A stretch of 64,000 nt of DNA, taken from the NCBI GenBank assembly GCA_947501695.1, contig CANMWO010000003.1, positions 521,001 to 585,000 on the forward strand. The letters are read 5' to 3'. Shown piece by piece: positions 1 through 15,462 of the stretch. The notes under the pieces are model-generated. The model searched no databases. It was not told the DNA's origin and worked only from the letters and a program-made list of their open reading frames with translations. The stretch is from an uncultured Sphingomonadaceae bacterium (GTDB lineage: Bacteria; Pseudomonadota; Alphaproteobacteria; Sphingomonadales; Sphingomonadaceae). The translations under genes were made by a program, and so were the position numbers. The stretch's first letter is position 1; each line of letters opens with the position of its first letter.

Positions 1-1170
1 AATTCCGATCATCTCCGCCGTCAGAACAGCACCTTCGTTCATCACTATCGAGCGTCTGATACGGTTCTGCAATTCGCGGACATTGCCTGGCCAGTCATAA
101 GCGGCCAATGCCAGTGCTGCGTCACCGTCCAAACTCTGAAAGGATTTGTCTTCTTCTTCCGAAAAGCGGCGCAAAAACTCATTGGCGATCAGGGAAATAT
201 CATGTCCACGATCACGAAGTGGAGGAATCTCAATAGGGATAACCGCCAACCGATAGAATAGATCTTCCCGAAACCGTCCTTCAGCTACTTCATGGGCCGG
301 GTCTCTATTTGTTGCACAAACCACGCGCACATCGACCTGTTCAGTGTTTGAACTGCCCACTCGCTGAATGGTTCCAGTTTGTAGAAACCGGAGTAATTTT
401 ACCTGGAGCTTAATGTCCATCTCGCAGATTTCGTCGAGAAACAGCGTCCCGCCGCTGGCTGCGAGAGCAGCCCCCACTCGATCCGAAGTGGCCCCGGTAA
501 AGGATCCTTTCATATGACCAAAAATTTCGGACTCAAGCAAATCTGCGGGAATTGCACCACAGTTTATCGCAACAAACGGACCTTTTGCGCGCTTACCCTG
601 CTTGTGCACCGCTTCTGCGGTAACTTCCTTGCCGGTCCCGCTTTCACCGGTAATGAAAATTGTCGCTTTGCTATCCGCAACATTTTCAATAGCTTTATAC
701 AGAGCTTGCATTTGCGGCGATTTTCCGATGAATCCATGAAAATTCGTTCGGTCCCGAAGATGTTTAACCGCCCGGACTTCCTGAACCAGTTCACTTTTTT
801 CACTCGCATTGCGAGCGGTTGTCATCAATCGTTCCGGGGCAATCGGCTTGACCAGAAAGTCGTATGCGCCAGCCTGCATCGCTTTGATCGCACGATTGAT
901 AGATCCATCGGCCGTTACCACAATCACAGAACTATTTTGTAGATAAGCACTATTCTGTTGTAAAAGGTCCAGACCATCAATGTCAGGCAATTGAAGATCG
1001 AGAAGGATAATAGAATAGGGCTTTTTGGCAGATTGCAGCAATTGCAAGGCCGTTGCGCCGTCATCTGCAATATCTACTTCAAAACCCTCATTCTTAAGCT
1101 GCTCAGAATAGTTGAACGCAAGACTGGCCATATCTTCCACAACCAGCGCATGATGAACGGATTTGGACAT
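1..1170 (-). CDS. sigma-54-dependent response regulator, NtrC family (3' end outside window)
   Basis: Reading the minus strand from the ATG at 1170 gives 390 codons with no stop, so the gene continues past the left edge. Residues 5-120 are a receiver domain with acidic pair E12/D13, phospho-acceptor D58, T86 and K108. Residues 145-390 are an AAA+ sigma-54 activator domain: Walker A GESGTGKE (175-182), the sigma-54 contact loop GSFTGA (222-227, usual GAFTGA), Walker B GGTLFLDEI with D246/E247, and a near C-terminal WPGNVRELQNR. The Fis-type DNA-binding helix must lie beyond the window. The ATG overlaps the stop of the H-NOX gene by one base (TAATG), so the two are translationally coupled. The role of such a protein is to activate RpoN-dependent promoters; four such promoters with shared upstream palindromes lie in this locus. 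By position and family it resembles PrsR, the regulator of PEP-CTERM/EPS genes, but that identity is inference. Confidence 0.93.
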   Translation of the reverse strand, partial: MSKSVHHALVVEDMASLAFNYSEQLKNEGFEVDIADDGATALQLLQSAKKPYSIILLDLQLPDIDGLDLLQQNSAYLQNSSVIVVTADGSINRAIKAMQAGAYDFLVKPIAPERLMTTARNASEKSELVQEVRAVKHLRDRTNFHGFIGKSPQMQALYKAIENVADSKATIFITGESGTGKEVTAEAVHKQGKRAKGPFVAINCGAIPADLLESEIFGHMKGSFTGATSDRVGAALAASGGTLFLDEICEMDIKLQVKLLRFLQTGTIQRVGSSNTEQVDVRVVCATNRDPAHEVAEGRFREDLFYRLAVIPIEIPPLRDRGHDISLIANEFLRRFSEEEDKSFQSLDGDAALALAAYDWPGNVRELQNRIRRSIVMNEGAVLTAEMIGI

Positions 1171-1718
1171 TATGCTGCCGCCGCACTCGGCGGTGCAATA
1201 ATGAACGATGCGCTGAAAGCGGGGGCGTCCCGTTCCCAGCTCACCTCGCGATTGTCGCCATAGTGGATCAAGCATTGTTCAATTAAACCAAAAGCAATTG
1301 CCGCCATTGGTCGATGGGACGAATAGCGCACGATCAATCTGTCACCTTTTTTTTCGGTGCTGACCTGCGGCGGTTGAGCATCTGGATATAGCGTGCATAC
1401 TTCGGTGTGAATATGTGGTCCGACATTGTCCAATAACTCCGACGCATTCTTGTAGCGTGACAGAATCTCGGGAAATAATATGATGAAGCGTGAGAATAGT
1501 GTTCGCCCAAATTGCCGGCTAAGTTCAGAAGCGTCAATCCCGCTGAGTTCGACTGCTGCCTCGATCATCTTGGCGGCATGGGCGGTGGGATAATTCCCTA
1601 CGCTCGTAAATGCACCATTATTGGGTAGATCCGCATTGACCAATACTTTGTCTGCGAATTCGGGCGAGACGGTCTCCTCCATAAACCGAACCAATTCTGT
1701 AAAAATCACGCCTTTCAT
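1170..1718 (-). CDS. H-NOX (heme NO/oxygen-binding) domain protein
   Basis: A 182-residue stand-alone protein of the length usual for bacterial H-NOX. The start MKGVIFTELVRFMEE is typical of the family. The proximal heme ligand is present as H104, seven residues before the YPDA motif (111-114), where the soluble guanylate cyclase beta-1 chain has H105. The heme-propionate motif YxSxR is intact (Y132, S134, R136). Known members sense NO (sometimes O2) in the cytoplasm and control a histidine kinase or a cyclic-di-GMP enzyme. Here the partner encoded by the overlapping downstream gene is a sigma-54 response regulator, and no kinase is immediately adjacent; a hybrid kinase lies 10 kb away. The last ~40 residues are less conserved and end in an Ala-rich tail. 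Heme binding is predicted from the three conserved positions; the ligand is not known. Confidence 0.88.
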   Translation of the reverse strand: MKGVIFTELVRFMEETVSPEFADKVLVNADLPNNGAFTSVGNYPTAHAAKMIEAAVELSGIDASELSRQFGRTLFSRFIILFPEILSRYKNASELLDNVGPHIHTEVCTLYPDAQPPQVSTEKKGDRLIVRYSSHRPMAAIAFGLIEQCLIHYGDNREVSWERDAPAFSASFIIAPPSAAAA

Positions 1719-1762: not shown

Positions 1763-1797
1763 TTGCATTTTGCTAATATTCCGTTTGCATTTTGCAA
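1763..1797. promoter_or_regulatory. paired upstream activator palindromes (region 1)
   Basis: Two copies of TTGCATTTTGC sit at 1763-1773 and 1785-1795, the second extended to TTTGCATTTTGCAA. Their centres are 22 bp apart (two helical turns), and the second is 85 bp upstream of the -12 element at 1875. The same palindrome family occurs in front of the other sigma-54 promoters of the locus. Likely binding sites of the response regulator encoded at 1-1170; inferred from position and repetition. Confidence 0.7.
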
Positions 1798-1861
1798 TTA
1801 ATGACAATTATTTATTGGATGAATTATTGTAACCCACTGATATAATAGAATATATTAATTC

Positions 1862-1877
1862 TGGCATATGATTTGCG
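1862..1877 (+). promoter_or_regulatory. sigma-54 (-24/-12) promoter of the export operon
   Basis: TGGCATATGATTTGCG has the invariant GG (1863-1864) and GC (1875-1876) separated by exactly 10 bp and matches the RpoN consensus TGGCAC-N5-TTGC at nearly every defined position. Transcription should begin near 1888, just ahead of the Wza-like gene at 1912. Confidence 0.78.
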
Positions 1878-1911
1878 AAGTTGGGGGAAACCCATTGTCA
1901 GGATTTTGAAG

Positions 1912-3120
1912 ATGAATTTGTTTACCCGCCTTATCACATCGCTATCCGTAGTTTCGCTGCTGAGCGCTTGCGCGGCAGGTCCTGCGCCAAGCAATTTGTC
2001 CGACAGTCGGTGGATGAATCAACAGCGTCAGCGCACGGCAGACTCAAGCGATCAAGGGCACAATTTTTCTTGCATTCAACCTAGTCGCCCAAAATTTCTT
2101 GAAGCCAGTAATTTTGTCGAACCGAACGATTTGCCCGGTGGAAGTAATATATTGTCTCCCGGAGATCGGGTTAGAGTAACTGTTGCTGGGGATGTCGACG
2201 TTCTAACAGGAATTTATGTTCTGACGGAAAATGGTTCCATTCAACTACCCCAAATCCCCCCGATTGCGATAGCGGGAAACAATGTTCTGGCAGCAGAACG
2301 TGCGATCAGATCGCATTTGTTATCCGCGGGATTTGTAAGGGACATAGGCAGCAATGTTGATGTTCGTTTGATCGAAAATTCGGGTGTCGCAATTTCAATA
2401 TCTGGAGCGGTATTTCAACCTGGTTCGGTGCGCGTTGGGGACCGCCGCACCGAAGACCGGGTAGGCCAAAAAGAAGGGCTGACCAGCGGGGATACCAATC
2501 CAGGTCGCACAGTATCGACGGCGCTACAGGTGGCGGGTGGGGTTCGTCCCGATGCCGCCGTCGATACTGTGTATTTGATTCGAGGAGGCAAGTGGACGCA
2601 GTTAAATTTGACGGGTAATTTCGACGGCTCCGATCATAGTAATCGCCCTGTAGTTGCGCTGGATCGTCTTATTGTTCCATCAAAGAAATGTTTTGATCCT
2701 TTGCTGGTTCGCCCTAGCGCCATCACCGCTCCAGGCATTCGCGTGTTCATGTCTAATCTGGCACGGTCAGCTAACAATAACGCCGGCGCAGCCATCGGCG
2801 AGAAAACCACCAGCCTGCCTTATGGAACACGTCTTTTGCAGGGTGCGATTGCGCTGAATTGCGTTGGCGGTTCTGCGATGAATGCTGGCCGCAAGGTTAT
2901 CTTGATTTCGCGTAATCCGATCAATGGTCAAAGTATTGTGACCGAACGCAAAGTTGAACGGCTTGTTCGCAGCGCGGATCGCGATGCCTATAATCCTTAC
3001 TTAATGCCAAATGACTCCCTCGCTTGCTATGACAGTGCCTTCATGAACTTTCGCGATGCTCTGAGCCTTGTTACCGATACGGCTACGCCGGCCCTTATCT
3101 TTGGGAATATCGGCAAATGA
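1912..3120 (+). CDS. polysaccharide export lipoprotein, Wza/GumB family
   Basis: 402 residues from the ATG at 1912, chosen because an AGGA lies 8 bases upstream and because it begins a clean lipoprotein signal peptide (lipobox LLSAC, then AAG). The first third contains the polysaccharide export domain (SPGDRVRVTVAGDVDVL followed by the IQLPQIPPIAIAG stretch), then SLBB-like beta-grasp segments (VAISISGAVFQPGSVRVGD; STALQVAGGVRPDAAVDTVYL). Family members form the outer-membrane pore for capsule or EPS. It heads the rightward export operon, its stop overlapping the next start by ATGA, and lies behind the sigma-54 promoter at 1862. The C-terminal ~130 residues are less typical. Confidence 0.85.
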   Translation: MNLFTRLITSLSVVSLLSACAAGPAPSNLSDSRWMNQQRQRTADSSDQGHNFSCIQPSRPKFLEASNFVEPNDLPGGSNILSPGDRVRVTVAGDVDVLTGIYVLTENGSIQLPQIPPIAIAGNNVLAAERAIRSHLLSAGFVRDIGSNVDVRLIENSGVAISISGAVFQPGSVRVGDRRTEDRVGQKEGLTSGDTNPGRTVSTALQVAGGVRPDAAVDTVYLIRGGKWTQLNLTGNFDGSDHSNRPVVALDRLIVPSKKCFDPLLVRPSAITAPGIRVFMSNLARSANNNAGAAIGEKTTSLPYGTRLLQGAIALNCVGGSAMNAGRKVILISRNPINGQSIVTERKVERLVRSADRDAYNPYLMPNDSLACYDSAFMNFRDALSLVTDTATPALIFGNIGK

Positions 3121-4529
3121 TCCATAGTCCAATATCAAAGAAAAGGCGTGTTGAACGCTTTTGGGATCTCGTTCGAGACGGATTGCATACCGAGGGGCGG
3201 TATACCCGATACCTCGCGTTATTGTCAGCCATTCTAGGTCTGATATGGCTGATCACTTTAGCATTTCTCGTTCTCATGCCCAATCGTTATGATAGCTCTT
3301 TCACACTGATTTTACCTGGTTCGGGTGTCGGGAGCAGCCTTAATCTAGAATCGATTGGACAAGCGACAACGGCAACCAATTCAGCGTTTAGTTCTTCATC
3401 GATCAGTCCAACTGAGAATTACAAACGATTGCTGATGGCCGATGTCACTCTGGCAAGAGCAGGCAAATTAGCCGGCGACGAAAATGAAAAGATGTCAGCT
3501 CCCCATGTGAAGCTGATCGATCAAACTAATTTGATAGAAGTCAGTATAACGGCTGACTCGCCTTCTCAAGCACAGAAAAAAGCGCAATCGTTGCGTGCAG
3601 CATTTCTGGATGGATTGGACCAGCTACGCCAAGATGAAGGCGAAAAGCGCGAAGAAGCCGAAAGCAAGCGTTTGGTTCAACTTGAAACCAAGGTCCGTGA
3701 AGCGCAACAAAAGTTGTTGGCCTTTCAAGGCGAAACCGGTCTTGTGTCATTGGAGCAGTTTAACAACCGGATATCTGCACTCGATTCACTCCAGGATCGC
3801 GAGCGGCAGGCCCGAACCGATACCAAGCGCGCATCGGCCACAGCGTCCCGAATTGCCAGCGCGCTCAACATATCGGTCGCCACCGCAAACAAAGCGTTCA
3901 CCCTAAAGGCTGATCCGGTTTTTCAATCTTTGCTCGCCCGCTATGCAACTGTGAATACTTCCGCTTCGGAGAAAAAGGCTACGCTTGGCCCTAATCACAG
4001 TCAGGTACAGCAGATCGATGCCGAGAATGAGCAGCTAAAAACCCAAATGCTTGCCCGCGGCAGCAAACTAACTGGCCTCAGCGGAGAAGTTCTGATGGGT
4101 TTTGCCGATCTATCAATGTCCAGCGAACGCGGTGCACTAGTTGGCGCCATGGTTGCTCGTGATTCAGAACGTCTCGGTGCCAGCGCCGGACTGGCAGACA
4201 TTCGTGCGCAAATATCAGAGCAAACAGCCAAGGCACCAAAGCTGGTCAACCAGGCGTCACAATTGGCGGATCTACAAAGGGACCTGCGCGTCTCAGAAGC
4301 CGTTTTCTCCTCAGCTCTTGCGAGAATTGATACCAACAAGGCAGATCCGTTCGCTTCTTATCCTCTGGTTCAAACACTGGAAGAGCCGAGCTTGCCAGAA
4401 GAACGCTCGTCGCCGTCCACTATTGTCGCTATAGCTGGAGCATTAGGGTCGTCCTTGGTGCTATTGATCGGATTTGGGTTATTGTGGTTCAGACAGTTAA
4501 TCATCCGCAAAGTTTTGCCGAACGCCTGA
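3117..4529 (+). CDS. chain-length / polysaccharide co-polymerase, Wzz/GumC family
   Basis: 470 residues starting in an ATGA overlap with the Wza-like gene. One membrane helix near residues 33-55, a long periplasmic part rich in predicted coiled coil (about 150-400, e.g. KRLVQLETKVREAQQKLL), and a second helix near 440-460 (IVAIAGALGSSLVLLIGFGLL) give the classic co-polymerase layout. The tail ends soon after the second helix, so there is no fused tyrosine kinase domain; a separate kinase is not seen in the window. Role: setting chain length and coupling polymerisation to export at the inner membrane. Confidence 0.82.
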   Translation: MIHSPISKKRRVERFWDLVRDGLHTEGRYTRYLALLSAILGLIWLITLAFLVLMPNRYDSSFTLILPGSGVGSSLNLESIGQATTATNSAFSSSSISPTENYKRLLMADVTLARAGKLAGDENEKMSAPHVKLIDQTNLIEVSITADSPSQAQKKAQSLRAAFLDGLDQLRQDEGEKREEAESKRLVQLETKVREAQQKLLAFQGETGLVSLEQFNNRISALDSLQDRERQARTDTKRASATASRIASALNISVATANKAFTLKADPVFQSLLARYATVNTSASEKKATLGPNHSQVQQIDAENEQLKTQMLARGSKLTGLSGEVLMGFADLSMSSERGALVGAMVARDSERLGASAGLADIRAQISEQTAKAPKLVNQASQLADLQRDLRVSEAVFSSALARIDTNKADPFASYPLVQTLEEPSLPEERSSPSTIVAIAGALGSSLVLLIGFGLLWFRQLIIRKVLPNA

Positions 4530-5767
4530 TATATTACTCCCTATTGAGCACATGGGCTTTGTGGTTGATCGGGGGTCTATATATTGCCGGACCGGTTATC
4601 GCCTGGATACTCGCACTTCATGTTGCCTGGCGGTATTATCTGGCTCCCGGCTTACCCGAACATCAGAAACCACATAAAGCTGGATTGGGCGTATGGGCCT
4701 GGATTGCCGGTATGGCTTTGTTGCTGGTCACATTGTGGGTCGGTCATATTAACTTTGACCTTGGTCTTGGCGCTACAATTAAATCGTCGATTGGATGGGC
4801 CAAAGGATGGGCGCTGCTCGCCATATTCATTATAGCGGGCGCTGCCCTCGATGTGCGCCCGGCTGTGATATATCGTGCGATATGCAAACTTGGTGCACAA
4901 ACATTGGTTCTGTTGCCGATCTTTCTGATAGCACCGTTTGTCGGCCTACCGGAGACACTCTATGTCTCTCCTTTGAAAATCGTAGGCGGTCCTGGACCGG
5001 AGTATTTTGCAACCACGCTTTACACGTTAGAACCCGGTGCTGGCATTCCACGCTGGCAATTCTTTGCACCATGGTCACCTGCCGCTGGCATGGTCGCATT
5101 GGTTTACATAATTTGTGCTATTGAAGAACAAGACCTGAAATGGAAGGTCATAGGAATTAGCGCCGGTTTAATAGTGGCGCTGCTCAGCCAGTCGCGATTG
5201 GCGCTGGTCGCAATTGCCGTCATTTGGCCAATGGCCTTTGCAATCTCGCGGATGAATAAACCCGTCATCTGGTTTCTGGCGGCACCGGTTCTACTTTTTA
5301 TCGGTTTCTTCTCTGTCAATATTGTTCAGACTGCCGGAGAAGTGCGATCAAATTTCGAAGGCGCGCGCGCAGATTCTACTCGGGTTCGAGCGACCTTAGG
5401 TCGCATCGCCGTTGACCGTTGGCAGGAGGAGGCCCCCTGGTTTGGTCACGGTATTGTCGAAAAAGGTCCCCACTTAGTAGAATATATGGTCATTGGCAGT
5501 CATCATAGCTGGTATGGATTGCTGTTTGTAAAAGGAATTATTGGTCTGTTGGCCTTGGCAATTCCGATGATGGTGAGTTTGTTCTTACTCGCAAAAAGAG
5601 CATATCGATACCCCGAAGCCCGTGTCGGCCTGTCCTTGCTGTTGTTGCTTTTTCTTTACAGCTTTGGAGAAAATCTAGAGATATTGGCCTATCTATATTG
5701 GCCGGCGCTCATCTTGATAGGAAATGGCCTGCGCCCTAGACTGACAGATGTTTCGGAAGCCGCGTGA
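4484..5767 (+). CDS. multi-spanning O-antigen polymerase/ligase-like protein (Wzy/WaaL type)
   Basis: 427 residues with about ten hydrophobic helices and a larger loop between residues 155 and 215. Near the C-terminus, GSHHSWYGLLFVKGIIGLL resembles the conserved HN..y...G..G stretch of the Wzy_C/ligase family. The GTG start at 4484 overlaps the preceding gene by 46 bp; it keeps the first helix intact, but a slightly later start is possible. As the only polymerase candidate in the locus it is the likely EPS polymerase. Its end overlaps the convergent glycosyltransferase gene by 32 bp. Confidence 0.7.
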   Translation: MVQTVNHPQSFAERLIYYSLLSTWALWLIGGLYIAGPVIAWILALHVAWRYYLAPGLPEHQKPHKAGLGVWAWIAGMALLLVTLWVGHINFDLGLGATIKSSIGWAKGWALLAIFIIAGAALDVRPAVIYRAICKLGAQTLVLLPIFLIAPFVGLPETLYVSPLKIVGGPGPEYFATTLYTLEPGAGIPRWQFFAPWSPAAGMVALVYIICAIEEQDLKWKVIGISAGLIVALLSQSRLALVAIAVIWPMAFAISRMNKPVIWFLAAPVLLFIGFFSVNIVQTAGEVRSNFEGARADSTRVRATLGRIAVDRWQEEAPWFGHGIVEKGPHLVEYMVIGSHHSWYGLLFVKGIIGLLALAIPMMVSLFLLAKRAYRYPEARVGLSLLLLLFLYSFGENLEILAYLYWPALILIGNGLRPRLTDVSEAA

Positions 5768-6770
5768 CGGCTCCAACTGGTGTCTGATGCAAAAAATTGA
5801 GCCAGTCCGATAACCGCTGATCCTCAAAAGTCATGGCCTGTTGCCGAGCCGAATGAGACATTTCGGTTAGCGGCAGCCGCCGAAGGTCGTTGAGCACCGA
5901 AACCAGACTATTCTGATCTCTGCAATCAACGACAACGCCAGAATTGAGGGCCTGTTCCGGCAGACCACCAACTGGTGCAACAATAATCGGACGTCCAGCC
6001 ATCTTTGCCTCTGCTGCAACTAAGCCAAAGCTTTCAAAATGCGACGGCACGGCCACGACATCGCAGCGGCTTAAAAAATAAGGTAGGGATTCTATTTCTC
6101 CGAAGAATCGAATATTTGGGCAACCATGAGCGAGTGCGCGGAGCGTTTCTTCCTGTTCCCCATAGCCACCAATATGAAGATATATATTGCTTGCATTATC
6201 AGTGCGTTTCACCGCCTCGATTAGCTCCGCAAATCCTTTGGCTTTCGTAAACCGGCCATAAGCACCTATTGTGAGCGACCTGTTTGCGGAAAAGCGAGGC
6301 AAGGCAATCTGTTCCAACCCCGTGAAATTGCTCCATGGATTAATCACATGAAAGGCACTCTCATTGACCTGCGTAACTTCACTGAGCCATTTTGCTTGCG
6401 CGTTGGAAACACAGATCACTTTGTCAAATAAAGCGACCGCGCATCGCAGCATAGCGCGAAAACGAGATTTAACAGGGACGTGCAAGGCTTCCCATTCGCG
6501 ATTATAACTATGTTCCATCCACACTATTTTAATATCGGGATTCCGGCTTCGCAAAGAAACAAGAAATGCGAGAACTTTCCAACTCGGTGGAAAATGGACG
6601 AGAATAATGTCGGTGTTCAATTTAGGTGCGATAGACCATTTTGGGTCAACCTCGACAATGGTCGATTCATATCGAGCGGTGAGATTTGGGTTTTGAAAAA
6701 GCTCAAGGTTTTTCGTCACGCCGCCAAGCGCAAAGTCATCAAGCAAATGGGTGATTTGAGTCCTTTTCAT
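5736..6770 (-). CDS. glycosyltransferase family 4
   Basis: 344 residues from the ATG at 6770 (AAGGAAAG just upstream; overlaps the previous stop by ATGA). The N-terminal Rossmann half starts ITHLLDDFALGGVTKNLELF. The C-terminal nucleotide-sugar half shows GAYGRFTKAKGFAELIEAV and the E-x7-E motif in PSHFESFGLVAAEAKMAG. Transfers a sugar from an activated donor onto the growing lipid-linked repeat unit at the cytoplasmic face; sugar specificity cannot be read. Last gene of the leftward flippase/glycosyltransferase operon. Confidence 0.85.
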   Translation of the reverse strand: MKRTQITHLLDDFALGGVTKNLELFQNPNLTARYESTIVEVDPKWSIAPKLNTDIILVHFPPSWKVLAFLVSLRSRNPDIKIVWMEHSYNREWEALHVPVKSRFRAMLRCAVALFDKVICVSNAQAKWLSEVTQVNESAFHVINPWSNFTGLEQIALPRFSANRSLTIGAYGRFTKAKGFAELIEAVKRTDNASNIYLHIGGYGEQEETLRALAHGCPNIRFFGEIESLPYFLSRCDVVAVPSHFESFGLVAAEAKMAGRPIIVAPVGGLPEQALNSGVVVDCRDQNSLVSVLNDLRRLPLTEMSHSARQQAMTFEDQRLSDWLNFLHQTPVGAVTRLPKHLSV

Positions 6771-7759
6771 ATTGCTTTCCTTTGCCCAGTCCACGAACCG
6801 GCAAATGCAGCAAACTGTGCCGGCTTCATGATGCGTGCGGCCAAACAAGCCAGATTGGTGATGATAGTTTTCCGAGGCTCCTCAAGTATCATTTTTGGAA
6901 ACGTGACCAAGGCCTGAAGCGAAAGGGAGAGCGCGAACGGCCCATCCCCCATGCTCGCAGCTCTGCGTGCGAGATAACGGAGCTGATAAGCTTTTGCCCT
7001 TGCCTTGTTCTTTTTGATAAAATCGGGCGCATAAAGAGCTGTTTTATCGATAGCTCGTTCCCAACTTTCAAATTGCCGCACGACGTTGGAAGACAAAGCG
7101 CCGGATACAATTCGATATTCCGTCAGCAAACCACCTATTCCTTCAAAATTTGCGGAAGCCGACAAGGCTAACCTCAACCAGCATTCAATATCTTCAGATT
7201 GCTTGAAATCCTCATCGAAATAGCATGTACGCTCCGGGAATCTGGGATGCTGGAAGGCGATCTTGTCTAGCGCTGACTTGCGAATTACTGGTGCCGATCC
7301 ATTGCCGACCGGATTGCGAGCAACAATGTCTGATGCGGAAATTTTTCCGAGCTTTGGTCGCATGGCAACCCGCAGGCGATTTCCATCCTCATCAATCAAG
7401 CGCGAACCAGAGAAGCTTACGTCCACATGGTAATTGCAGGTCAGGTGAATAGTGTGCAGCATGAGTTTACTCGGCAGCCAACGATCATCGCTGTCGAGAA
7501 ACGCAATAAGAGATCCTTTTGCTAGTCCGATGCCACGATTGCGCGCGCCCGATAATCCGCGATTGGCTTGATGCACAATCCTGATCCTCGGGTCGGTAAA
7601 TTCGGAGCAGATATCAATGCTGGCATCTGTTCCACCATCGTCAACAATGATGAGTTCAAAATTTTCATAAGTTTGATCGAGAACTGACTGGATGGCTTCA
7701 CGAACGTAGCGTTCAACATTGTAAACCGGCATTATGATCGAGACGAAAGGTTGTGTCAT
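6767..7759 (-). CDS. glycosyltransferase family 2
   Basis: 330 residues. The second of two close ATGs (7759 rather than 7765) is preferred because AAGG is then 8 bases away. A GT-A fold is evident from SIIMPVYNVERYVREAIQSV, IIVDDGGTD and the donor/metal motif FLDSDDRW. The acceptor half is about 150 residues. The C-terminal arrangement (LRYLARRAA followed by SLSLQALVTFP) is shared with the next GT2 gene, so the two are paralogues. Member of the EPS assembly operon. Confidence 0.88.
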   Translation of the reverse strand: MTQPFVSIIMPVYNVERYVREAIQSVLDQTYENFELIIVDDGGTDASIDICSEFTDPRIRIVHQANRGLSGARNRGIGLAKGSLIAFLDSDDRWLPSKLMLHTIHLTCNYHVDVSFSGSRLIDEDGNRLRVAMRPKLGKISASDIVARNPVGNGSAPVIRKSALDKIAFQHPRFPERTCYFDEDFKQSEDIECWLRLALSASANFEGIGGLLTEYRIVSGALSSNVVRQFESWERAIDKTALYAPDFIKKNKARAKAYQLRYLARRAASMGDGPFALSLSLQALVTFPKMILEEPRKTIITNLACLAARIMKPAQFAAFAGSWTGQRKAI

Positions 7760-7788
7760 TTTCATATCCTTTTAAGACTATTGTTTGT

Positions 7789-8709
7789 TTATGCGAAGAT
7801 GCGGATGCGCGTTTCACGCGGGAGAAACTGCGCAGCAATTGCACCGGTCAACGTCGCCAATCCGCGGTTTCTGCCGGAGAAAAAGGCGCGGATATTGAGG
7901 CGTAGGCCTCGCAGAGAGAAACCTAGAGCAGTATTGGCTCTCGCACCGGTTCTCAACGCTCGTCGCGCTAGGTAACGGCAATATTGTGCTTCTGCAGCGG
8001 ACCGGTCGAAATGGGTTTCGTAGGAGGAAGCAAGCAATCGCCAGCCAGCATACATTTTCTCTAGATTGGCCGATAGGCCATCACCGCTCATTCGATAGTC
8101 CACCAGATGGCAGTTGATACCGCGAATATTAAGGCCTTTGGCGCATGCACGAACCAGCCATTCCTGATCTTCGGCATAAGACATCCCTTCGCGAAATAGA
8201 CCAATTTTCTCCAGGCAATCGCTACGAAGGACAATGTTGGACGACGTGCATGTTGGATTTTCGGCAACAAGCTCTGCGACACTAAGGTTCATCGGCGGCA
8301 CGGTAGAAACGGCTCGCGATGCCTCAGGGAAATTTGATATAAATTCGACTTGGGCAAAACTGATCGCAATGTCAGGGAAACTGCGATGCCAAGACCAATG
8401 CCGCGCAAGTTTGTTGGGAAGCCAAAGGTCATCAGCATCCAAAAATGCGATGAGTTTGCCATGGGCGCAAGTGAGGCCGAAGTTCCGCGCAGCAGCAACG
8501 CCCATATTTTGTTGCGACTTCACTTTTATACGAGTGTCTTTTGACGCCATTGCCAGCGCCTTCCGCAAGCTGTTATCGGTCGAACCATCATCGACGATAA
8601 TGAGTTCAAAACTTTTTTCAGTTTGTTGCAGCACACTGGCGATCGTTGATTCCAAGGTCGAAGCCGCGTTGAATACGGGAATGATAACTGAGAATTTTAA
8701 ATTGGTCAT
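7789..8709 (-). CDS. glycosyltransferase family 2
   Basis: 306 residues from the ATG at 8709, which overlaps the flippase stop by ATGA with GGAGACAC upstream; longer open frames to 9153 are an overlap artefact. GT-A motifs: SVIIPVFNAASTLESTIASV, IIVDDGSTD and FLDADDLW. Similar overall to its downstream neighbour, suggesting a local duplication with diverged specificity. Part of the leftward EPS operon. Confidence 0.88.
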   Translation of the reverse strand: MTNLKFSVIIPVFNAASTLESTIASVLQQTEKSFELIIVDDGSTDNSLRKALAMASKDTRIKVKSQQNMGVAAARNFGLTCAHGKLIAFLDADDLWLPNKLARHWSWHRSFPDIAISFAQVEFISNFPEASRAVSTVPPMNLSVAELVAENPTCTSSNIVLRSDCLEKIGLFREGMSYAEDQEWLVRACAKGLNIRGINCHLVDYRMSGDGLSANLEKMYAGWRLLASSYETHFDRSAAEAQYCRYLARRALRTGARANTALGFSLRGLRLNIRAFFSGRNRGLATLTGAIAAQFLPRETRIRIFA

Positions 8710-9998
8710 ATGAGTGTCTCCTTCTTCGACGAAAAATTTATGGGCATTTGCTGATGAGCCTTCCGGTAGAAGGCGATGGATATCGGAATGAAGGTGATGG
8801 CCAGACCGAGCCCATATCCTATGGCTGCAGCATTGAGACTGATCCTTGCTCCTAGCGCTAAGCAGACGAGCGTCGTTCCGGTTGCCAACGCGACTATCGC
8901 AAGGTCCGCCGAGGTACGACCCGCTGCTCGCAACCAAGTTGTGTTCGCCGCAGCGCAGAAAATCGGGATGGCGGCGAGTGACAACAGGCTCACCAAAGGT
9001 GCCGCCTCGCTCCATTGTTGCCCAAAAACGAAAGGCACATAAATTGGTGCGAACAATGCTTGAGCAAGCGTCAATGGCAAGAAGATAGCTGCGCCCAATA
9101 GAAATGAACTGCGATAGCGTTGCAAACGCAGCATCCCGTTTTTGACACCGCACAGATGGGGAAACAAAATGGTTGAAAATGCTGTTACGATAGATGTCGT
9201 GATGCCGAGGCCAGCATTGAAGGCGAAGTAATAGATGCCGAGTGCCTTCACCCCCAATAGCGAACCGATAATCAATTTGTCGGCCTGCATCCGGACGGCC
9301 GTTAGCATCTCACTTCCAAGTACACTCAAGGAGAAGTTTACAAAGCGGTGTGCCGGAATCTTTCCTTCTGCCGCGTTATATTTCCACTTTTTGGCCTTGC
9401 GGACAGCAATCAACCAAATCGGAGCCGTGAGCAGCTTGGGTAATACAATTGCCCAGGCCGAGGGCCAAAGAACAACAAGAACCATGGTAAGAAGATGATC
9501 TGCAATTGTCTGCACGGCGCCTATTTTTGCCGTGACCGCCATTTGCCCGTCTCTCATTAGCAGAAACACCTGAACCAGACCGCCCGGCATAAAAAGAAAT
9601 ACGGCAGATAGAACAGCGAGCATGAATGCGGCGTCGGTTTGCCCGAATATGAAATGAAGCAGACCGGCAACGCACAATTGGATCAGGCCAACAAGCCCAC
9701 ACCATATCCAGAAAAGGCGATGTGCCGTATTCGCCGTCGCCGGCAAATCTGCTTTCGAAGCCATTATGATTTTTTGACCGATCCCGGCGTTTGCGAGGAC
9801 TCGAACCAGTTCAAACAGGCTAAGCGATAATGCCGCGATACCCATTAACTCCGGCGTGACGGCACGGGCAATTACAACGACAGCCACGATTCGGATCAGG
9901 CGTACGAGCATTTCGGCACTGCCATAAGCCGCCAGGGATGAAAGGAACCAAATACTGTCCTTTCCCAACCTTGTTTTCGCTTGATGCCAAATGGCCAT
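8706..9998 (-). CDS. polysaccharide flippase, Wzx / MATE-like
   Basis: 430 residues from the ATG at 9998 (GGAG six bases upstream; an ATG 12 bases earlier lacks a ribosome site). About twelve hydrophobic helices occur in the pattern of the WzxC-type polysaccharide transporters, starting LAAYGSAEMLVRLIRIVAVV and including the VNFSLSVLGSEMLTAVRMQ segment. Its role is to flip the undecaprenyl-linked repeat unit across the inner membrane. First gene of the operon transcribed from the sigma-54 promoter at 10031-10047. Confidence 0.82.
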   Translation of the reverse strand: MAIWHQAKTRLGKDSIWFLSSLAAYGSAEMLVRLIRIVAVVVIARAVTPELMGIAALSLSLFELVRVLANAGIGQKIIMASKADLPATANTAHRLFWIWCGLVGLIQLCVAGLLHFIFGQTDAAFMLAVLSAVFLFMPGGLVQVFLLMRDGQMAVTAKIGAVQTIADHLLTMVLVVLWPSAWAIVLPKLLTAPIWLIAVRKAKKWKYNAAEGKIPAHRFVNFSLSVLGSEMLTAVRMQADKLIIGSLLGVKALGIYYFAFNAGLGITTSIVTAFSTILFPHLCGVKNGMLRLQRYRSSFLLGAAIFLPLTLAQALFAPIYVPFVFGQQWSEAAPLVSLLSLAAIPIFCAAANTTWLRAAGRTSADLAIVALATGTTLVCLALGARISLNAAAIGYGLGLAITFIPISIAFYRKAHQQMPINFSSKKETLI

Positions 9999-10030
9999 GA
10001 TGATCTCCATAATCGAATATGGAAGTCACC

Positions 10031-10047
10031 TCTCAAGTCCCGTGCCA
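10031..10047 (-). promoter_or_regulatory. sigma-54 promoter of the flippase/glycosyltransferase operon
   Basis: On the minus strand the sequence is TGGCACGGGACTTGAGA. TGGCAC is a perfect -24 element, GG lies 10 bp from GA, and the -12 element TTGA deviates from TTGC at one base. The -12 position (10034) is 82 bp from the centre of the nearer upstream palindrome (10116), matching the other promoters of the locus. The flippase start at 9998 follows. Confidence 0.68.
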
Positions 10048-10109
10048 TTTATATAAAACATTGTAATATAAGGATAATTATTGAATCTATGGTTCGAACA
10101 CTCTCCATA

Positions 10110-10155
10110 TTTGCATATTGCGAACATATTTCAAAAAATCACTGCAAAATGCGAA
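10110..10155. promoter_or_regulatory. paired activator palindromes shared by divergent promoters
   Basis: TTTGCATATTGCGAA at 10110-10124 and CTGCAAAATGCGAA at 10142-10155 (inverted orientation). Centres are 33 bp apart, three helical turns. The left site is 82 bp from the leftward -12 element and the right site 83 bp from the rightward one, so one pair can serve both promoters. Confidence 0.72.
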
Positions 10156-10218
10156 TTCAGTCTATAAATTCTACATTGCATATTTTATTTTCTAATGATT
10201 TTAATAACTTAAGCTAAT

Positions 10219-10234
10219 TGGCATAGTTTCTGCA
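10219..10234 (+). promoter_or_regulatory. sigma-54 promoter of the sugar-transferase gene
   Basis: TGGCATAGTTTCTGCA: GG at 10220-10221 and GC at 10232-10233 with 10 bp between them. Expected transcript start near 10245, about 30 bases before the ATG at 10275. Confidence 0.75.
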
Positions 10235-10274
10235 AAATCCGTTTCCAATCAATTTGATAAAAAGGATTTTGAAA

Positions 10275-11714
10275 ATGCTTCATCAGAAACTTCTCGCGGA
10301 TAAGTCAAATGCAACAGAGTATAATACGCTAGATTTAAGGTCCCTTCTTTCGAGTTGGACGAAGTTCGATCGTTCCGAGCTTTTCGGTTTCAATTTGATC
10401 CGAGCAGATCGAGAATCTGCCGCCAGTGCAATCATGCAATCGGCCCGAAGCAATCAAAAAGTAACGGTGAACTTCATCAATGCACATTGTATCAATATAG
10501 CAGCAAAGGATTCCGTGTACCGCGAATGTCTAAAGGCAAGCAGCGCGCTTCTTCCGGATGGATCAGGCATGTCTATCGCCTCAAAATTAGCGAAAGCTCC
10601 GTTAGGAGAAAATTTGAACGGAACTGATCTGTTTCCCATTCTGTGCCAAAAGGCAGCAGAGGCGGGGAAATCTATATATCTGCATGGTGGTGAGCCAAAG
10701 GTAGCCGAGCAGGTCGCCAAAAACATGAAAAAGCAATATCCCGATTTGATGATCGCGGGAGTGAGCAATGGCTATGAGGACCATGCTGACACAGCTGCAA
10801 CAATTGCAAAAATCAATAGATCAAATGCCGACTTAGTTTTTGTTGGCTTGGGCGTTCCGATGCAGGAAAAGTGGATCGCCGAACATCGCTCATGGATCAA
10901 TGCCCCAGTCGTTCTGGGTGTTGGTGGGCTTTTTGACTATTATTCGGGTCGTATTCCAAGAGCACCACGACTGGTAAGAGCGGCAGGCATGGAGTGGGTT
11001 TGGAGATTGATGCAAGAACCCCAGCGGTTGGCCAACAGATATTTGGTGGGCAATATTAGTTTTCTTGCCAAAGCCGCAGTGAATGGATGGCATGCAAGAG
11101 GTCTGCACCAAAAAGTATTTGTAACCAACAAGCGTGTGTTAGACCTAACTTTAACATTGCTCGGGCTCATTTTGATTGGGCCGTTCTTTGCGGCTATTTC
11201 TCTGTTGATCCTCGCTGAAGATCGCGGCCCCGTCTTTTTCAAACAAGTTCGAATTGGAGAGAATGGGCAGCCTTTCAAAATGTGGAAATTCCGATCCATG
11301 GCAGTCGATGCCGAACAGCGATTGAAAAAGCTGATGGAGCAAAGCGATCGCGATGATGTGTGCTTCAAGATGAAAAATGATCCCCGTATCACCAAAATCG
11401 GCAAACTTATTCGCCGTTTTTCGATGGATGAATTACCTCAGCTCATAAACGTCTTGAAAGGAGATATGTCATTGGTCGGCCCACGCCCCGCGCTACCCAA
11501 AGAAGTCATGCAAAGACCAAATAAAAGTATGAATCGGCTCGCCGGAAAACCGGGACTGACCTGCACGTGGCAAGTTTCCGGTCGGGCAGAAATACCGTTT
11601 GAGGAGCAGGTCAAAATGGACGAGGAATATCTTAGTCATCAAAGCGTGCTGAAAGATATTTCGCTTCTCGTCTCCACCGTACCGGCCGTTCTAACGGGAC
11701 GCGGTGCCTATTGA
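10275..11714 (+). CDS. GT26 (WecG/TagA/CpsF) fused to undecaprenyl-phosphate sugar transferase
   Basis: 479 residues from the ATG at 10275, with AAAGGA eight bases upstream. Residues ~35-260 are a WecG/TagA-type glycosyltransferase (VNFINAHCINIAAKD; LLPDGSGM; FVGLGVPMQEKWI). Residues ~285-479 are a bacterial sugar-phosphate transferase of the WbaP/WcaJ type: one membrane helix (about 290-312), then VFFKQVRIGENGQPFKMWKF, the catalytic SMDELPQLINVLKGDMSLVG and GLTCTWQVSGR. The second half would load the first sugar phosphate onto undecaprenyl phosphate and the first half add the next sugar, so one polypeptide can start repeat-unit synthesis. It stands alone behind its own sigma-54 promoter. Confidence 0.88.
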   Translation: MLHQKLLADKSNATEYNTLDLRSLLSSWTKFDRSELFGFNLIRADRESAASAIMQSARSNQKVTVNFINAHCINIAAKDSVYRECLKASSALLPDGSGMSIASKLAKAPLGENLNGTDLFPILCQKAAEAGKSIYLHGGEPKVAEQVAKNMKKQYPDLMIAGVSNGYEDHADTAATIAKINRSNADLVFVGLGVPMQEKWIAEHRSWINAPVVLGVGGLFDYYSGRIPRAPRLVRAAGMEWVWRLMQEPQRLANRYLVGNISFLAKAAVNGWHARGLHQKVFVTNKRVLDLTLTLLGLILIGPFFAAISLLILAEDRGPVFFKQVRIGENGQPFKMWKFRSMAVDAEQRLKKLMEQSDRDDVCFKMKNDPRITKIGKLIRRFSMDELPQLINVLKGDMSLVGPRPALPKEVMQRPNKSMNRLAGKPGLTCTWQVSGRAEIPFEEQVKMDEEYLSHQSVLKDISLLVSTVPAVLTGRGAY

Positions 11715-11722
11715 AGGATGCT

Positions 11723-14335
11723 CTATACGCCGCAGGCTTTCTCAACTTCACTCAGCGTTTTGTTTGCGGAGTTTTTGAACCTATCAAGGGATTTCGGATC
11801 AGAGAGATCTGCGGCGTTCGCTTGATCCAATAAACCGTCAAATCCGAAAGTTTGTGCTACTCCTTTAACCCGATGACGGACTCCGGATAAAAGCTCATCG
11901 CTTTGATCGGTATATGCAGCTTCCATATGCGAAACCGAGACCGCCAAATCCTTTCGCAGTGTTTCTTTCAAAGCCTCTCGTCTGTCGGGCGTAAGGGTGG
12001 CTAAGACCGAGCGGAATTGATCAATATTAATAGCTGCAGGCATATCCGACTGAGAGGGGGAAATCTGCTCATCATCTTCAGCTTTGCTCAACGCGCTTCT
12101 TATCGCACTTGCCAATTCATGCTTGTCGATCGGCTTCGCCAAGCATTGGTCCATACCGATGGCCAGCAGACTTTCCCGTTCTGTTTCCATCGCATGCGCC
12201 GTAACACCAATGATCGGGATGTTAGACTTGACAGAACCCATTTTTCGGATGGCTTTCGTCGCTTCTTTGCCGTCCATCACGGGCATCGATACATCCATGA
12301 GGACCAAGTCAAACTCATGGTCTTCCAGCATATCTATCGCTACTTGACCATTTTCAGCTAATGCGTTGGTGCATCCGAAAAGATCAAGCATAGAAGCAAT
12401 GACGAACTGATTGGCCTCCACGTCTTCCGCTATCAGTATGTGGGGCTTCTCTCCGTCACGGTTTTTAATCAGCAACGGCGGCGCGCTGATCGTGTTGACT
12501 TCGATCGGAACAGTTGCTTCTTCCAATGGTATCTCGAACCAGAACATGCTGCCGCGAGCTTCTTTGCTGATTAGGCCGATATCGCCGCCCATCGCACTGA
12601 CCAATCGACGGCAGATCGCCAGACCCAAGCCAACGCCTTCTATTTCACTCCGCTCCACTTTCGGCGAGCGAGTGAAATTGGCGAATAGAGAGGATTGTAT
12701 GTCTTCTGGCACCCCCATACCATTATCCGCCACCTCAACACGCAAAAATCTCTTTTCGTCATGTTCACTCTGCAGAAGTGAAACTGATACTTTCCCGCTC
12801 GGACCCGGCGTGTATTTTATTGCATTGCTTACAAAATTGTTGAGCAACTGACGAAACCGCGTCGGATCAATGAACAGCGCAGTTGGCAGACTTGGATCAC
12901 GGTCTGTGTCTAATTCAATGCCTTTTGCCTTGGCCGCACCCGACCAGAAGTCCATTACGCCAGTGACCACCAGGTCCAGCACGGTAGGTGCTGGTTCCAA
13001 AGAAATAGCGCCTGCCTCTGCGCGAGCCAGATCGATAATGTCGTCGAGCAGAATTTTCAGCAACTCGCCACTTTGCATGGCCAAACGCAGCTGCTTTCTT
13101 TGTGGTTCACTGAGCTCGGTTTCCTCCATCAGCGATAGCATACCCAACACCCCGTTCATGGGTGTTCTGATGTCGTGGCTCATCATCGCTAAAAATTCCG
13201 ACTTAGCTCGATTAGCCCGCTCTGCTTCCATTTTTGAAGAGCGAAGTGCAGAACTCAGGGTTTCCAATTCATCGACGCGTTCGCCTAGTTGCGACCGTTG
13301 TTCTCTCAAGCGGCTTTCTATCTTTTTCAATTCGCTGATATCGGTATAAGTCCTCACCATACCGCCTTTATACGGAGCAACAGTTATCTGAATATGTTCC
13401 CCGTTGCTGCTACGCAAAAGATATTTATGCGGCTTTACGTTTCCAGCCCGGTCTCTTTCAATGTAGGATAATGCTTCGAGATTTTGCACCTGGAACTCTG
13501 ACTTCAACGCGTGATAATCTGAATATTCCATACCTTTGGAAAGGTTTTCATATTTGGTTCCGATCAATTCCTTCAGCTTGTCGTTCCAACTGACAAGTCG
13601 CAAATCGTCATCAAAAACGGCGACCCCTAATGGTACATTATTCAAAACAGCTTGGAGATAAACTGCATTTTGACGTTCACGTTCTGTTGCTTTGGCAAGC
13701 TGCTCACTGGTTCTGTTTAGTTGCTTGATTCGCCGTTCTGCAACCAATTGCAGTGCCTTTGCACGTCTACCAATTGCTCGAGTTTCTGTGATGTCTTGAA
13801 CGGTACCATATATGCCAATCACCTCTCCATCTGCATTCGCTTGTTTGGCCATGCTCCACTTGAACCACATTGTGTCGCTCGAGGGAGTCACCATCCGACA
13901 TTCATAGCTATGATCGGCGCCCGGAGGTGCAGTCAAAAACTCTAGCCGGAGCTTTGATACGCGGGCGCGGTCAAGAGGATGCACGGCCCGCCATGCCCGT
14001 TCTGCAATCGACTCTCCATCAGACTCTATGCCAAGCATTTCTCGGAAGAATGGAGAATAAGAAAGCCCTTTGTTTTTAGGCCAATGGAGCGTCGCGATAC
14101 GCCCGGTCTTCTCGGCTCGTATCAATTCCTGTGAGCTTATTTCCATTTTGTTGATTAGCTCTGCTTCGCGCTGTTGAAGCTCGACACTTCTAAGCGCAAC
14201 CAGTCGCGCTTTATCCTCTAGCAGAGTCTCTGCTTCCTGGCGGGCAGCTTCGGAACGAGCCAAGCGGCGTTGGAGAAAAGCAATTTTCTCCTGCTCATTC
14301 ATCCCGGCGCTAAGAGAAGTTGTTTCATTCGCCAT
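11723..14335 (-). CDS. hybrid sensor histidine kinase (PAS-PAS-HisKA-HATPase-REC-HPt)
   Basis: 870 residues from the ATG at 14335; the open frame extends 24 bases upstream only to a TTG. No membrane helix is visible, so the protein is cytoplasmic. In order: an N-terminal coiled coil (LARSEAARQEAETLLEDKA), a PAS domain (~75-190), a second PAS (~225-340, VPLGVAVFDDDLRLVSWND), HisKA with the phospho-histidine in MMSHDIRTPMNG, a HATPase domain (NNFVSNAIKYTP; GVGLGLAICRRLV), a receiver (LVLMDVSMPVMDG) and an HPt domain (GVRHRVKGVAQTFG, histidine present). Soluble orphan hybrid kinases with this kind of N-terminal coiled coil include H-NOX partners such as NahK/HnoS. It is convergent with the sugar-transferase gene, 8 bp apart. 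It is a candidate middle step between the H-NOX protein and the sigma-54 regulator; that link is inference. Confidence 0.9.
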   Translation of the reverse strand: MANETTSLSAGMNEQEKIAFLQRRLARSEAARQEAETLLEDKARLVALRSVELQQREAELINKMEISSQELIRAEKTGRIATLHWPKNKGLSYSPFFREMLGIESDGESIAERAWRAVHPLDRARVSKLRLEFLTAPPGADHSYECRMVTPSSDTMWFKWSMAKQANADGEVIGIYGTVQDITETRAIGRRAKALQLVAERRIKQLNRTSEQLAKATERERQNAVYLQAVLNNVPLGVAVFDDDLRLVSWNDKLKELIGTKYENLSKGMEYSDYHALKSEFQVQNLEALSYIERDRAGNVKPHKYLLRSSNGEHIQITVAPYKGGMVRTYTDISELKKIESRLREQRSQLGERVDELETLSSALRSSKMEAERANRAKSEFLAMMSHDIRTPMNGVLGMLSLMEETELSEPQRKQLRLAMQSGELLKILLDDIIDLARAEAGAISLEPAPTVLDLVVTGVMDFWSGAAKAKGIELDTDRDPSLPTALFIDPTRFRQLLNNFVSNAIKYTPGPSGKVSVSLLQSEHDEKRFLRVEVADNGMGVPEDIQSSLFANFTRSPKVERSEIEGVGLGLAICRRLVSAMGGDIGLISKEARGSMFWFEIPLEEATVPIEVNTISAPPLLIKNRDGEKPHILIAEDVEANQFVIASMLDLFGCTNALAENGQVAIDMLEDHEFDLVLMDVSMPVMDGKEATKAIRKMGSVKSNIPIIGVTAHAMETERESLLAIGMDQCLAKPIDKHELASAIRSALSKAEDDEQISPSQSDMPAAINIDQFRSVLATLTPDRREALKETLRKDLAVSVSHMEAAYTDQSDELLSGVRHRVKGVAQTFGFDGLLDQANAADLSDPKSLDRFKNSANKTLSEVEKACGV

Positions 14336-14634
14336 CGGTAAAGCTTGTCTCCATATCAAAAGCTGATTTACTGGATTTAGCAGATAAGGTCGACCATAAG
14401 ATTAATTCTGTATTTCGTTTACATTCACTGCCTACAATAATTCTTAGGACGAACGAATGTAGGCCAAATAGGCCAATCCGAAGCAACTCCATGCACTGAC
14501 ACCCCGCTCGTAGCATATGCCTGTGGTGGATCATGAAAAAGCTCATCAAAATAAGAGCTTAGGAACTGCGAAAATTAAATAAATCTCCGAAGAAATGCAT
14601 AAATATCGTTCTTTGCGAGAATATTTCCATCTGA

Positions 14635-14682
14635 TTTCGCATTTTGCAGTGATTTCTCCAAATTATTTTCGCAATATGCGAA
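14635..14682. promoter_or_regulatory. paired activator palindromes upstream of the PEP-CTERM gene
   Basis: TTTCGCATTTTGCAG (14635-14649) and TTCGCAATATGCGAA (14668-14682, nearly perfect dyad). Centres are 33 bp apart, the same spacing as at 10110-10155, and the second is 83 bp from the -12 element. The surrounding gap 14336-14793 otherwise holds AT-rich DNA and no gene I can support. Confidence 0.72.
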
Positions 14683-14744
14683 TTTTTCTTGAAATCAAGA
14701 TGATGGAAAACTTATTATCTTTATATTACAATAGATTATCGGAT

Positions 14745-14760
14745 TGGCATGGAAATTGAA
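14745..14760 (+). promoter_or_regulatory. sigma-54 promoter of the PEP-CTERM gene
   Basis: TGGCATGGAAATTGAA: GG at 14746-14747, 10 bp, then GA at 14758-14759 in place of GC. An ATG at 14749 lies inside this element, which argues that the gene really starts at the GTG 45 bases further on. Confidence 0.66.
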
Positions 14761-14793: not shown

Positions 14794-15462
14794 GTGAAAA
14801 TCTATCTATTGGCAGCTGTCGCGACGGCTGCATTCACATCATCGGCAAGCGCTGCCACCTACATTCCGGTGGGGCCGCAGACCAACGTTGAAGTTGCGAC
14901 AGTTACGGGCGGTGGTTGGTCAGAGTGTTATTCGAGTACCTATGGTTCGACCGGACAATCGGTAGCCAGTATACTGAAAGGTTGTAACAACGGTGACAGT
15001 TTGATGTTGGCGGCCCGTGAGATCGGAAGTGATACTTTTTTGGTGCTTGCACAAGCGTTACGTGCTGATGTGTTGTTTGATACCGGCCGTAGCAATGTTA
15101 CGCACAATGCAAACGGAACGGAATGGTATTTTTCCGACAACTATTCCTGGGGCTTCGCACCTGGCGGGGAATCAGTAACTAGGAATAGTTGCGACACCAC
15201 CAATAGAGGAAGCGGCGACCGGCTATGCTGGCATACGCGTGCCGGCAATATCAATGGTGGTTGGCGGGCTGGTTCAAACACCGGCCTGAATAGCAGCGAT
15301 GCGTTTGAACGAGTCATCTATACAGCAAATGCATCTATTGGTGCTGTGCCAGAACCAGCAACATGGGCGTTCATGATCTTTGGCTTTGGTGCCATTGGCG
15401 GAGCGATGAGGTCAGATCGACACCGTCAGCGCAAAGCGATTGTGAAAACTAGCTACGCATAA
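14794..15462 (+). CDS. PEP-CTERM sorting-signal protein, secreted
   Basis: 222 residues from a GTG at 14794 with AAGGAGAA seven bases upstream. The signal peptide is short (KIYLLAAVATAAFTSSASA), so export by Sec is expected. The body has no family I recognise and is rich in Gly, Ser, Asn and Thr with four or more cysteines, suggesting an extracellular disulfide-stabilised domain. The tail VPEPATWAFMIFGFGAIGGA followed by basic residues is the PEP-CTERM anchor of the sphingomonad type, normally cut by an exosortase. No exosortase is visible in the window. Its promoter shares the sigma-54/palindrome arrangement of the EPS genes, so the protein is probably made together with the polysaccharide and retained in or on it. 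Confidence 0.85.
   Translation: MKIYLLAAVATAAFTSSASAATYIPVGPQTNVEVATVTGGGWSECYSSTYGSTGQSVASILKGCNNGDSLMLAAREIGSDTFLVLAQALRADVLFDTGRSNVTHNANGTEWYFSDNYSWGFAPGGESVTRNSCDTTNRGSGDRLCWHTRAGNINGGWRAGSNTGLNSSDAFERVIYTANASIGAVPEPATWAFMIFGFGAIGGAMRSDRHRQRKAIVKTSYA

Follow-up and report, generated by a model that had tools for sequence, protein, structure and literature searches.

Paired LuxO-type boxes upstream of sigma-54 promoters in a sphingomonad exopolysaccharide locus with an H-NOX gene

Which activator reads the sigma-54 promoters of an exopolysaccharide locus in an uncultured Sphingomonadaceae bacterium, and to which signal would it respond? The locus lies in a stretch of 64,000 nucleotides (positions 521,001 to 585,000 of contig CANMWO010000003.1, assembly GCA_947501695.1), hereafter the window, and includes polysaccharide genes, a PEP-CTERM gene and a gene for a LuxO/SypG-like sigma-54 response regulator (1-1170, minus strand; REC, AAA+ and Fis-type helix-turn-helix domains). 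An earlier note on this DNA had described four -24/-12 elements with paired palindromes and attributed them to one activator, very probably the NtrC-family regulator encoded at 1-1170. Uniqueness of the composite pattern in the genome, the recognition helix and co-occurrence with a gene cassette support that attribution, and the promoters most probably form one sigma-54 regulon with this one activator. We consider it highly probable that the four promoters are the regulon of the 1-1170 regulator through paired boxes, with phosphate from a hybrid kinase and gating by an H-NOX protein as the most likely inputs.

Four promoters and their paired boxes

All four sigma-54 elements are present in the window, together with paired palindromes of one family. 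They precede the polysaccharide export operon (1862-1877, plus strand, TGGCATATGATTTGCG), the flippase and glycosyltransferase genes (10032-10047, minus strand, TGGCACGGGACTTGAG), the initiating transferase gene (10219-10234, plus strand, TGGCATAGTTTCTGCA) and the PEP-CTERM gene (14745-14760, plus strand, TGGCATGGAAATTGAA). Each has GG and GC or GA at a fixed spacing, and the genome encodes both RpoN and an enhancer-binding protein. Of the 12 positions specified, the six palindromes (TTYGCANNNTGCRAA) match 10 to 12; with variation at the three bases in the centre, the consensus becomes TTYGCA-NNN-TGCRAA. Far and near copies, none of them assigned a strand, lie at 1762-1776 (GTTGCATTTTGCTAA) and 1784-1798 (TTTGCATTTTGCAAT) before the export operon and at 14636-14650 (TTCGCATTTTGCAGT) and 14668-14682 (TTCGCAATATGCGAA) before the PEP-CTERM gene, while the boxes at 10110-10124 (TTTGCATATTGCGAA) and 10141-10155 (ACTGCAAAATGCGAA) are common to two divergent promoters. 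The description of four palindrome-bearing promoters therefore stands, with the amendments that one pair serves two of them and that the centre of the palindrome is variable.

The distance from the end of the near box to the T of TGG is 63 bp at the export operon, 62 bp at the flippase promoter (from box 10110), 63 bp at the initiating transferase promoter (from box 10141) and 62 bp at the PEP-CTERM promoter. In the same order, the second box lies 22, 31, 31 and 32 bp beyond the near one, which corrects the pair spacings previously given as 22, 33 and 33 bp to 22, 31 and 32 bp; 31-32 bp corresponds to about three helical turns and 22 bp to about two. The rpoN gene itself (TIGR02395, 435 bits) is found at G000:C3:513649-515109 (L013 4619-6142), approximately 6 kb left of the window and near the sigma-54 regulon.

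Motif and geometry had been regarded as undescribed, which the evidence does not support. The motif is the upstream activating sequence (UAS) of LuxO, given as TTGCAWWWTGCAA (PMC10162802; here and below, papers are cited from the parts of their text available to us), and the sites found by ChIP-seq (chromatin immunoprecipitation sequencing) at qrr1-4 of Vibrio cholerae are of the same form (PMC10328515). The near boxes differ from the published LuxO 13-mer at 0 (1784), 1 (10110), 2 (10141) and 2 (14668) positions. The spacing recurs as well. Proteins above the LuxO model cut-off occur in 8 of 398 genomes drawn from the phylum, and seven of the eight loci (L183-L188 and L190) contain an Rfam match to the small RNA Qrr; at qrr1 in these seven, the near box stands 62, 62, 61, 62, 60, 60 and 62 bp from TGG. 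Three of them also have a far box, at 91-93 bp and thus 30-31 bp beyond the near one, that is weaker (8-10 of 12 positions). At the eighth locus, L189, a box is present, but Qrr is not matched and no strong sigma-54 element adjoins the box. For PEP-CTERM genes, Haft et al. (2006) reported a mean of 62.8 nt (standard deviation 10.6) between the sigma-54 site and a different activator motif, their 17-nt motif 1 that ends in TTTACA (PMC1569441).

The arrangement against chance and across genomes

The statistical significance of the pattern rests in the composite arrangement, two boxes plus a sigma-54 site, and not in single palindromes. The window contains four composites, whereas shuffled windows contain 0.0033 on average (at most 1, in 300 shuffles), and an approximate set of shuffles gave the same result as an exact dinucleotide shuffle of 500-bp blocks (300 windows). 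Written as TGCCA-N50..80-GCANNNTGC-N5..35-GCANNNTGC with no mismatch allowed, the composite is found in the 3,598,743-bp genome at exactly the four window places, and its reversed form at none. A scan for one box plus TGGCA returns 32 places in the genome, four of them in the window, compared with 5 for the control. Palindromes with at most one mismatch number 5 in the window against 1.66 expected (a count reached in 4 of 100 shuffles), and those with at most two mismatches number 692 genome-wide against 324 for a reversed pattern of unmatched composition. The regularity that the earlier note judged hard to obtain by chance is thus upheld for the composite but not for single palindromes at 10 or more of 12 positions; likewise, its concern that palindromes might occur at random throughout the genome holds for single palindromes and not for the arrangement.

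Of 31 other genomes in the genus, five encode the regulator, at 56-58% identity, and all five carry an 11-gene cassette in the same order: regulator, H-NOX, Wza, Wzc-like protein, Wzy, three glycosyltransferases, flippase, initiating transferase and hybrid kinase. The same 6 of 32 genus genomes, which are related to one another, carry H-NOX (a single copy each), regulator and Wzy. In each of the five relatives, the intergenic region between H-NOX and Wza carries boxed sigma-54 promoters on either side, with the near box 62-63 bp away, and the flippase and initiating-transferase promoters with their boxes and sigma-54 sites are present in all five too. Boxes at the relatives' initiating transferase lie at 85 bp and, in four of the five, at 66 bp, with lower scores. 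A lack of conservation upstream of orthologous genes, also raised as a concern, is contradicted in these five genomes. The PEP-CTERM gene and its promoter, compared with the five relatives' cassettes, are seen only in the window's genome. From another genus of the family, locus L210 shows the same boxed H-NOX/Wza arrangement, and Magnetospirillum sp. SS-4 (L021) has a similar gene order without an H-NOX match. Downstream of the regulator, the cassettes of G018 and G030 contain an extra divergent pair of boxed sigma-54 promoters; the gene to the right of this pair resembles, by eye, a PAP2 phosphatase, possibly for lipid-carrier recycling.

The pattern extends to more distant regulators. Around relatives of the regulator we assembled 79 named loci, which are not independent (several are from Hellea, and L093 and L094 belong to the same species). 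In 17 of the 79, a total of 20 arrangements combine a sigma-54 element with two boxes spaced 18-24 bp; shuffled locus sets (20 approximate, 10 exact) have none. The gaps between box and sigma-54 element are 39 (two cases), 50-51 (six), 61-62 (seven), 65, 71, 75 and 84 bp (two), so that three values, separated by roughly one helical turn, account for 15 of 20. Ten downstream proteins were compared with Pfam. Six were identified, as an H-NOX (L023), an outer-membrane efflux protein, a UDP-glucose/GDP-mannose dehydrogenase, a GlcNAc 2-epimerase, a glycosyltransferase and an RTX-repeat protein; the other four matched no family. At the distant loci L023 and L029, H-NOX is encoded near such a regulator and is itself behind a boxed sigma-54 promoter. 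In five loci (L017, L019, L020, L029, L054) from Hellea/Robiginitomaculum-type genomes, a protein of 225-237 amino acids with the motif Y[VI]GPQSVxPG and a signal-peptide-like start is recurrently preceded by a boxed sigma-54 promoter whose gap is 50 bp; the L029 copy has no Pfam match. In Vibrio penaeicida (L093:12630, plus strand), a sigma-54 site before a glycosyltransferase gene has boxes TTAGCATTTTGAGAA and TTTTCAAAATGCTAA 84 bp away, which look like the published SypG site.

The regulator and its family

The full regulator has 464 amino acids (L013:11776-13170, C3:520776-522170), its C-terminal part lying left of the window. It scores 531.5 bits against the LuxO model (NF041946, equivalog), for which the curated cut-off is 800, and 410.8 bits against the PrsR model (TIGR02915), for which it is 502.6; the closest relative in the PDB is LuxO (5ep0). 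In a tree of 57 sequences it groups with its five genus orthologues and L210 (support 100/99), outside both the LuxO clade (100/100) and a clade of syp-type regulators (100/100; L088, L089, L093 and L094, taken as syp-like from their gene order). The deepest forks are partly open, so the order of the LuxO, syp and alphaproteobacterial clades is not settled. Model scores and tree placement together make the regulator LuxO/SypG-like and a member of neither group. Its recognition helix, SPSTLYRK, corresponds to SPST[IL]YRK in LuxO and SPST[VL]YRK in the syp-type regulators of Vibrio. Sequence evidence strongly supports this protein as the reader of the boxes.

Likeness to the LuxO/qrr system of Vibrio includes the domain layout, GFIG in the linker between REC and AAA+, the helix SPSTxYRK, the box TTGCAWWWTGCAA and a spacing of 62-63 bp here versus 60-62 bp there. 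Unlike LuxO, the regulator is predicted to act on exopolysaccharide and PEP-CTERM genes and has H-NOX in its operon. It shares with SypG and ScvE the position of a LuxO-like sigma-54 regulator inside the polysaccharide locus of its predicted control, accompanied by a hybrid kinase with an Hpt (here Hpt-like) domain (PMC12369376, PMC10162802, PMC8941931). It differs from SypG in forming a separate clade, in having LuxO-like boxes where the SypG UAS is TTCTCANNNTGMDWN (PMC10162802), and in gene content. Loci of syp type have been described in two alphaproteobacterial genera (PMC8941931). In the titles and abstract openings of the papers listed by our searches, which covered mainly open-access journals, we recognised no report of H-NOX together with a LuxO/SypG-like regulator in sphingomonads.

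Signal input and competing readings

Two genes that had been overlooked suggest where the signal may enter. The first encodes an H-NOX (haem-nitric oxide (NO)-binding) protein (1170-1718, minus strand) in an operon with the regulator. It scores 99.4 bits against PF07700, above the gathering score of 25.5, and contains IHTEVCTLYPD, whose histidine is presumably the haem ligand, and YSSHR, which we take to be the H-NOX motif YxSxR; binding of haem and NO is predicted accordingly from sequence. The second encodes a tripartite hybrid histidine kinase (11723-14359, minus strand; PAS-PAS-HisKA-HATPase-REC and an Hpt-like end). This end reads HRVKG and is conserved as HxVKG/HxLRG, and with the HisKA, HATPase and REC domains it would allow phosphate to pass from histidine to aspartate to histidine and on to the regulator. 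In Vibrio fischeri, HnoX senses NO and inhibits HahK; HahK in turn acts through SypF and SypG to drive syp polysaccharide (PMC12369376). The best reading of the locus, by analogy, is an alphaproteobacterial counterpart of this H-NOX/SypF/SypG control of exopolysaccharide. NO and H-NOX are a known input of Vibrio syp (SypF, HnoX-HahK) and are here deduced from the H-NOX gene, which is operonic with the regulator and not, as in the Vibrio syp-type system, with a kinase.

One possible mechanism can be outlined. The phosphorylated regulator would bind the paired LuxO-type boxes, which are in helical register 62-63 bp upstream of the -24/-12 elements, and loop to the RpoN-polymerase, which its AAA+ domain would open. 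Export and polymerisation, glycosyltransferases and flippase, initiating transferase and PEP-CTERM protein would thus be switched on jointly. The phosphate would most likely come from the hybrid kinase through its REC and Hpt-like domains to the REC aspartate of the regulator, and H-NOX would most likely gate the kinase upon binding NO or another haem ligand; from the Vibrio fischeri analogy, NO would lower exopolysaccharide. Box binding, promoter activation, phosphate flow, the H-NOX partner and NO as signal with its sign are what we infer. The H-NOX/regulator operon of the relatives stands behind a boxed promoter, and positive autoregulation is therefore predicted there; in the window, H-NOX has boxes 43 bp upstream of it but lacks a good sigma-54 site of its own, so the feedback may be lost or negative.

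Other explanations must be set against this one. One is that the palindromes are AT-rich inverted repeats that arose by chance, or bind some unrelated factor; single palindromes are indeed as frequent as in shuffles, but the composite is unique in the genome, its spacing is kept in five related genomes and at LuxO/qrr1, and the 20 arrangements in the named loci have no counterpart in the shuffled sets; already contradicted by conservation, this reading is hardly credible. The link that the earlier note drew to PrsK/PrsR control of PEP-CTERM genes was tempting. A PEP-CTERM gene of Aquincola is RpoN-dependent (PMC9850573), a PrsR is encoded in the genome, and a sigma-54 promoter of a PEP-CTERM gene with an activator motif about 63 nt upstream recalls the 62.8-nt average of the regulon of Haft et al. 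(PMC1569441). The two cases differ, however, in activator family, recognition helix and DNA motif. Motif 1 of Haft et al. is not this palindrome, and of the four boxed promoters, three belong to polysaccharide genes and accompany the LuxO-like regulator across genomes. As a candidate for the regulator's identity PrsR was rejected: the protein falls short of the PrsR cut-off and favours LuxO, and the true PrsR (669 bits, recognition helix SRPTLYDL) is encoded on another contig, at C1:777436-778770. Membership in the PrsK/PrsR regulon is accordingly very improbable, and the misassignment is corrected. A LuxO quorum-sensing circuit proper, complete with Qrr small RNAs, is suggested by the identical box and geometry and by LuxO being the nearest characterised family, and is very improbable too: the score is far below the LuxO cut-off, the regulator falls outside the LuxO clade, the promoters precede protein-coding polysaccharide genes, and a scan limited to the window and L013 found no Qrr match.

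The regulator may also control the promoters without H-NOX being its input; H-NOX could be an O2 or redox sensor, act with another partner such as a cyclic-di-GMP enzyme, or be a mere passenger. Several partner types of H-NOX proteins are known (PMC8738867), the kinase gene is 10 kb from H-NOX, and 77 of the 79 named loci are without an H-NOX match in the examined, often short, flanks. We nevertheless think this less likely, as H-NOX is in the regulator operon, occurs with the regulator in the same 6 of 32 genomes at one copy each, and in the relatives is itself behind boxed promoters.

The reading of one LuxO-type regulon with kinase and H-NOX input draws on boxes, geometry, genome uniqueness, conservation, recognition helix and domain content, all of which are in the sequence. 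Several observations weigh against it. Single palindromes that match at least 10 of 12 positions are no more frequent in the window than in shuffled sequence (17 against 18.4 +/- 4.1 in 300 exact dinucleotide shuffles; the approximate shuffles give 18.5 +/- 4.1). The composite pattern used for the genome scan is a loose one and has 67 matches in the 32 genus genomes, against 1 for a reversed control of unmatched composition. Only 17 are at or beside the cassettes; the 26 regulator-free genomes account for 40, and 10 lie off the cassettes in the six genomes with a regulator. We regard these 40 and 10 as background, since GCANNNTGC would suit coding sequence and the reversed control is not matched in composition, and a match alone therefore means little in the other genus genomes. 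In all five relatives the strongest flippase box is at 86 and not 62 bp, the initiating-transferase -24/-12 elements match only 9-10 of 12 positions with weaker second boxes, and neither tblastn nor the PEPxxWA pattern found a PEP-CTERM gene in their cassettes. On the H-NOX side of the window, unlike in the five relatives, sigma-54 candidates match only 8 or 9 of 12 positions at other gaps, and were rejected as too weak. The AAA+ loop (residues about 222-228) reads GSFTGA instead of GAFTGA; three aligned clade members also have GSFTGA, with GAFTGA in aligned LuxO, syp-type and other relatives. Finally, the Hpt-like end of the kinase has no Pfam Hpt match.

For enhancer control of the LuxO/SypG kind, both the lineage and the operon partner, H-NOX, are new. 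The well-studied LuxO DNA code is extended to sphingomonad-like alphaproteobacteria, and its box, spacing and helix make it readable across classes, which gives a concrete regulon outside Vibrio of four promoters, one regulator, one kinase and one gas-sensor-type protein. This suggests that exopolysaccharide production is under gas-signal control; if NO does gate the regulon, NO control of the biofilm matrix through a LuxO-type regulator would be no speciality of vibrios. A broader possibility, which we put forward only tentatively, is that the enhancer code of LuxO, made up of box, helix and 62-bp spacing, represents an old system of polysaccharide control across Alphaproteobacteria in which H-NOX is both input and target; the vibrio LuxO-Qrr circuit would then be a later re-use, and the locus here a transferable, gas-gated cassette for exopolysaccharide that feeds back on its own sensor.

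The remaining genes complete the locus. On the plus strand, a Wza-like polysaccharide export protein (Poly_export, 1912-3120) is followed by a chain-length determinant-like protein (EpsF/Wzc-like, 3117-4529; far below the NCBIfam cut-off, no Pfam match) and a Wzy/O-antigen-ligase-like polymerase (4484-5767). The minus strand encodes a group 1 glycosyltransferase (5736-6848, start approximate), two family 2 glycosyltransferases (6767-7765 and 7789-9153, the listed start of the latter overlapping the flippase and its true start probably near 8700) and a polysaccharide flippase (Polysacc_synt_3, 8706-10010). The initiating transferase (10275-11714, plus strand) is a WecG/TagA glycosyltransferase fused to a Bac_transf polyprenyl glycosylphosphotransferase in one protein, and the PEPxxWA-CTERM protein, whose signal points to a sphingomonad-like organism, lies at 14794-15462 (plus strand). 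A tRNA gene (L013:11513-11599) is located about 180 bp downstream of the regulator stop, and in G030 and G018 the cassette adjoins a gene that by eye resembles topA, which would fit relocation of the cassette from one site to another.

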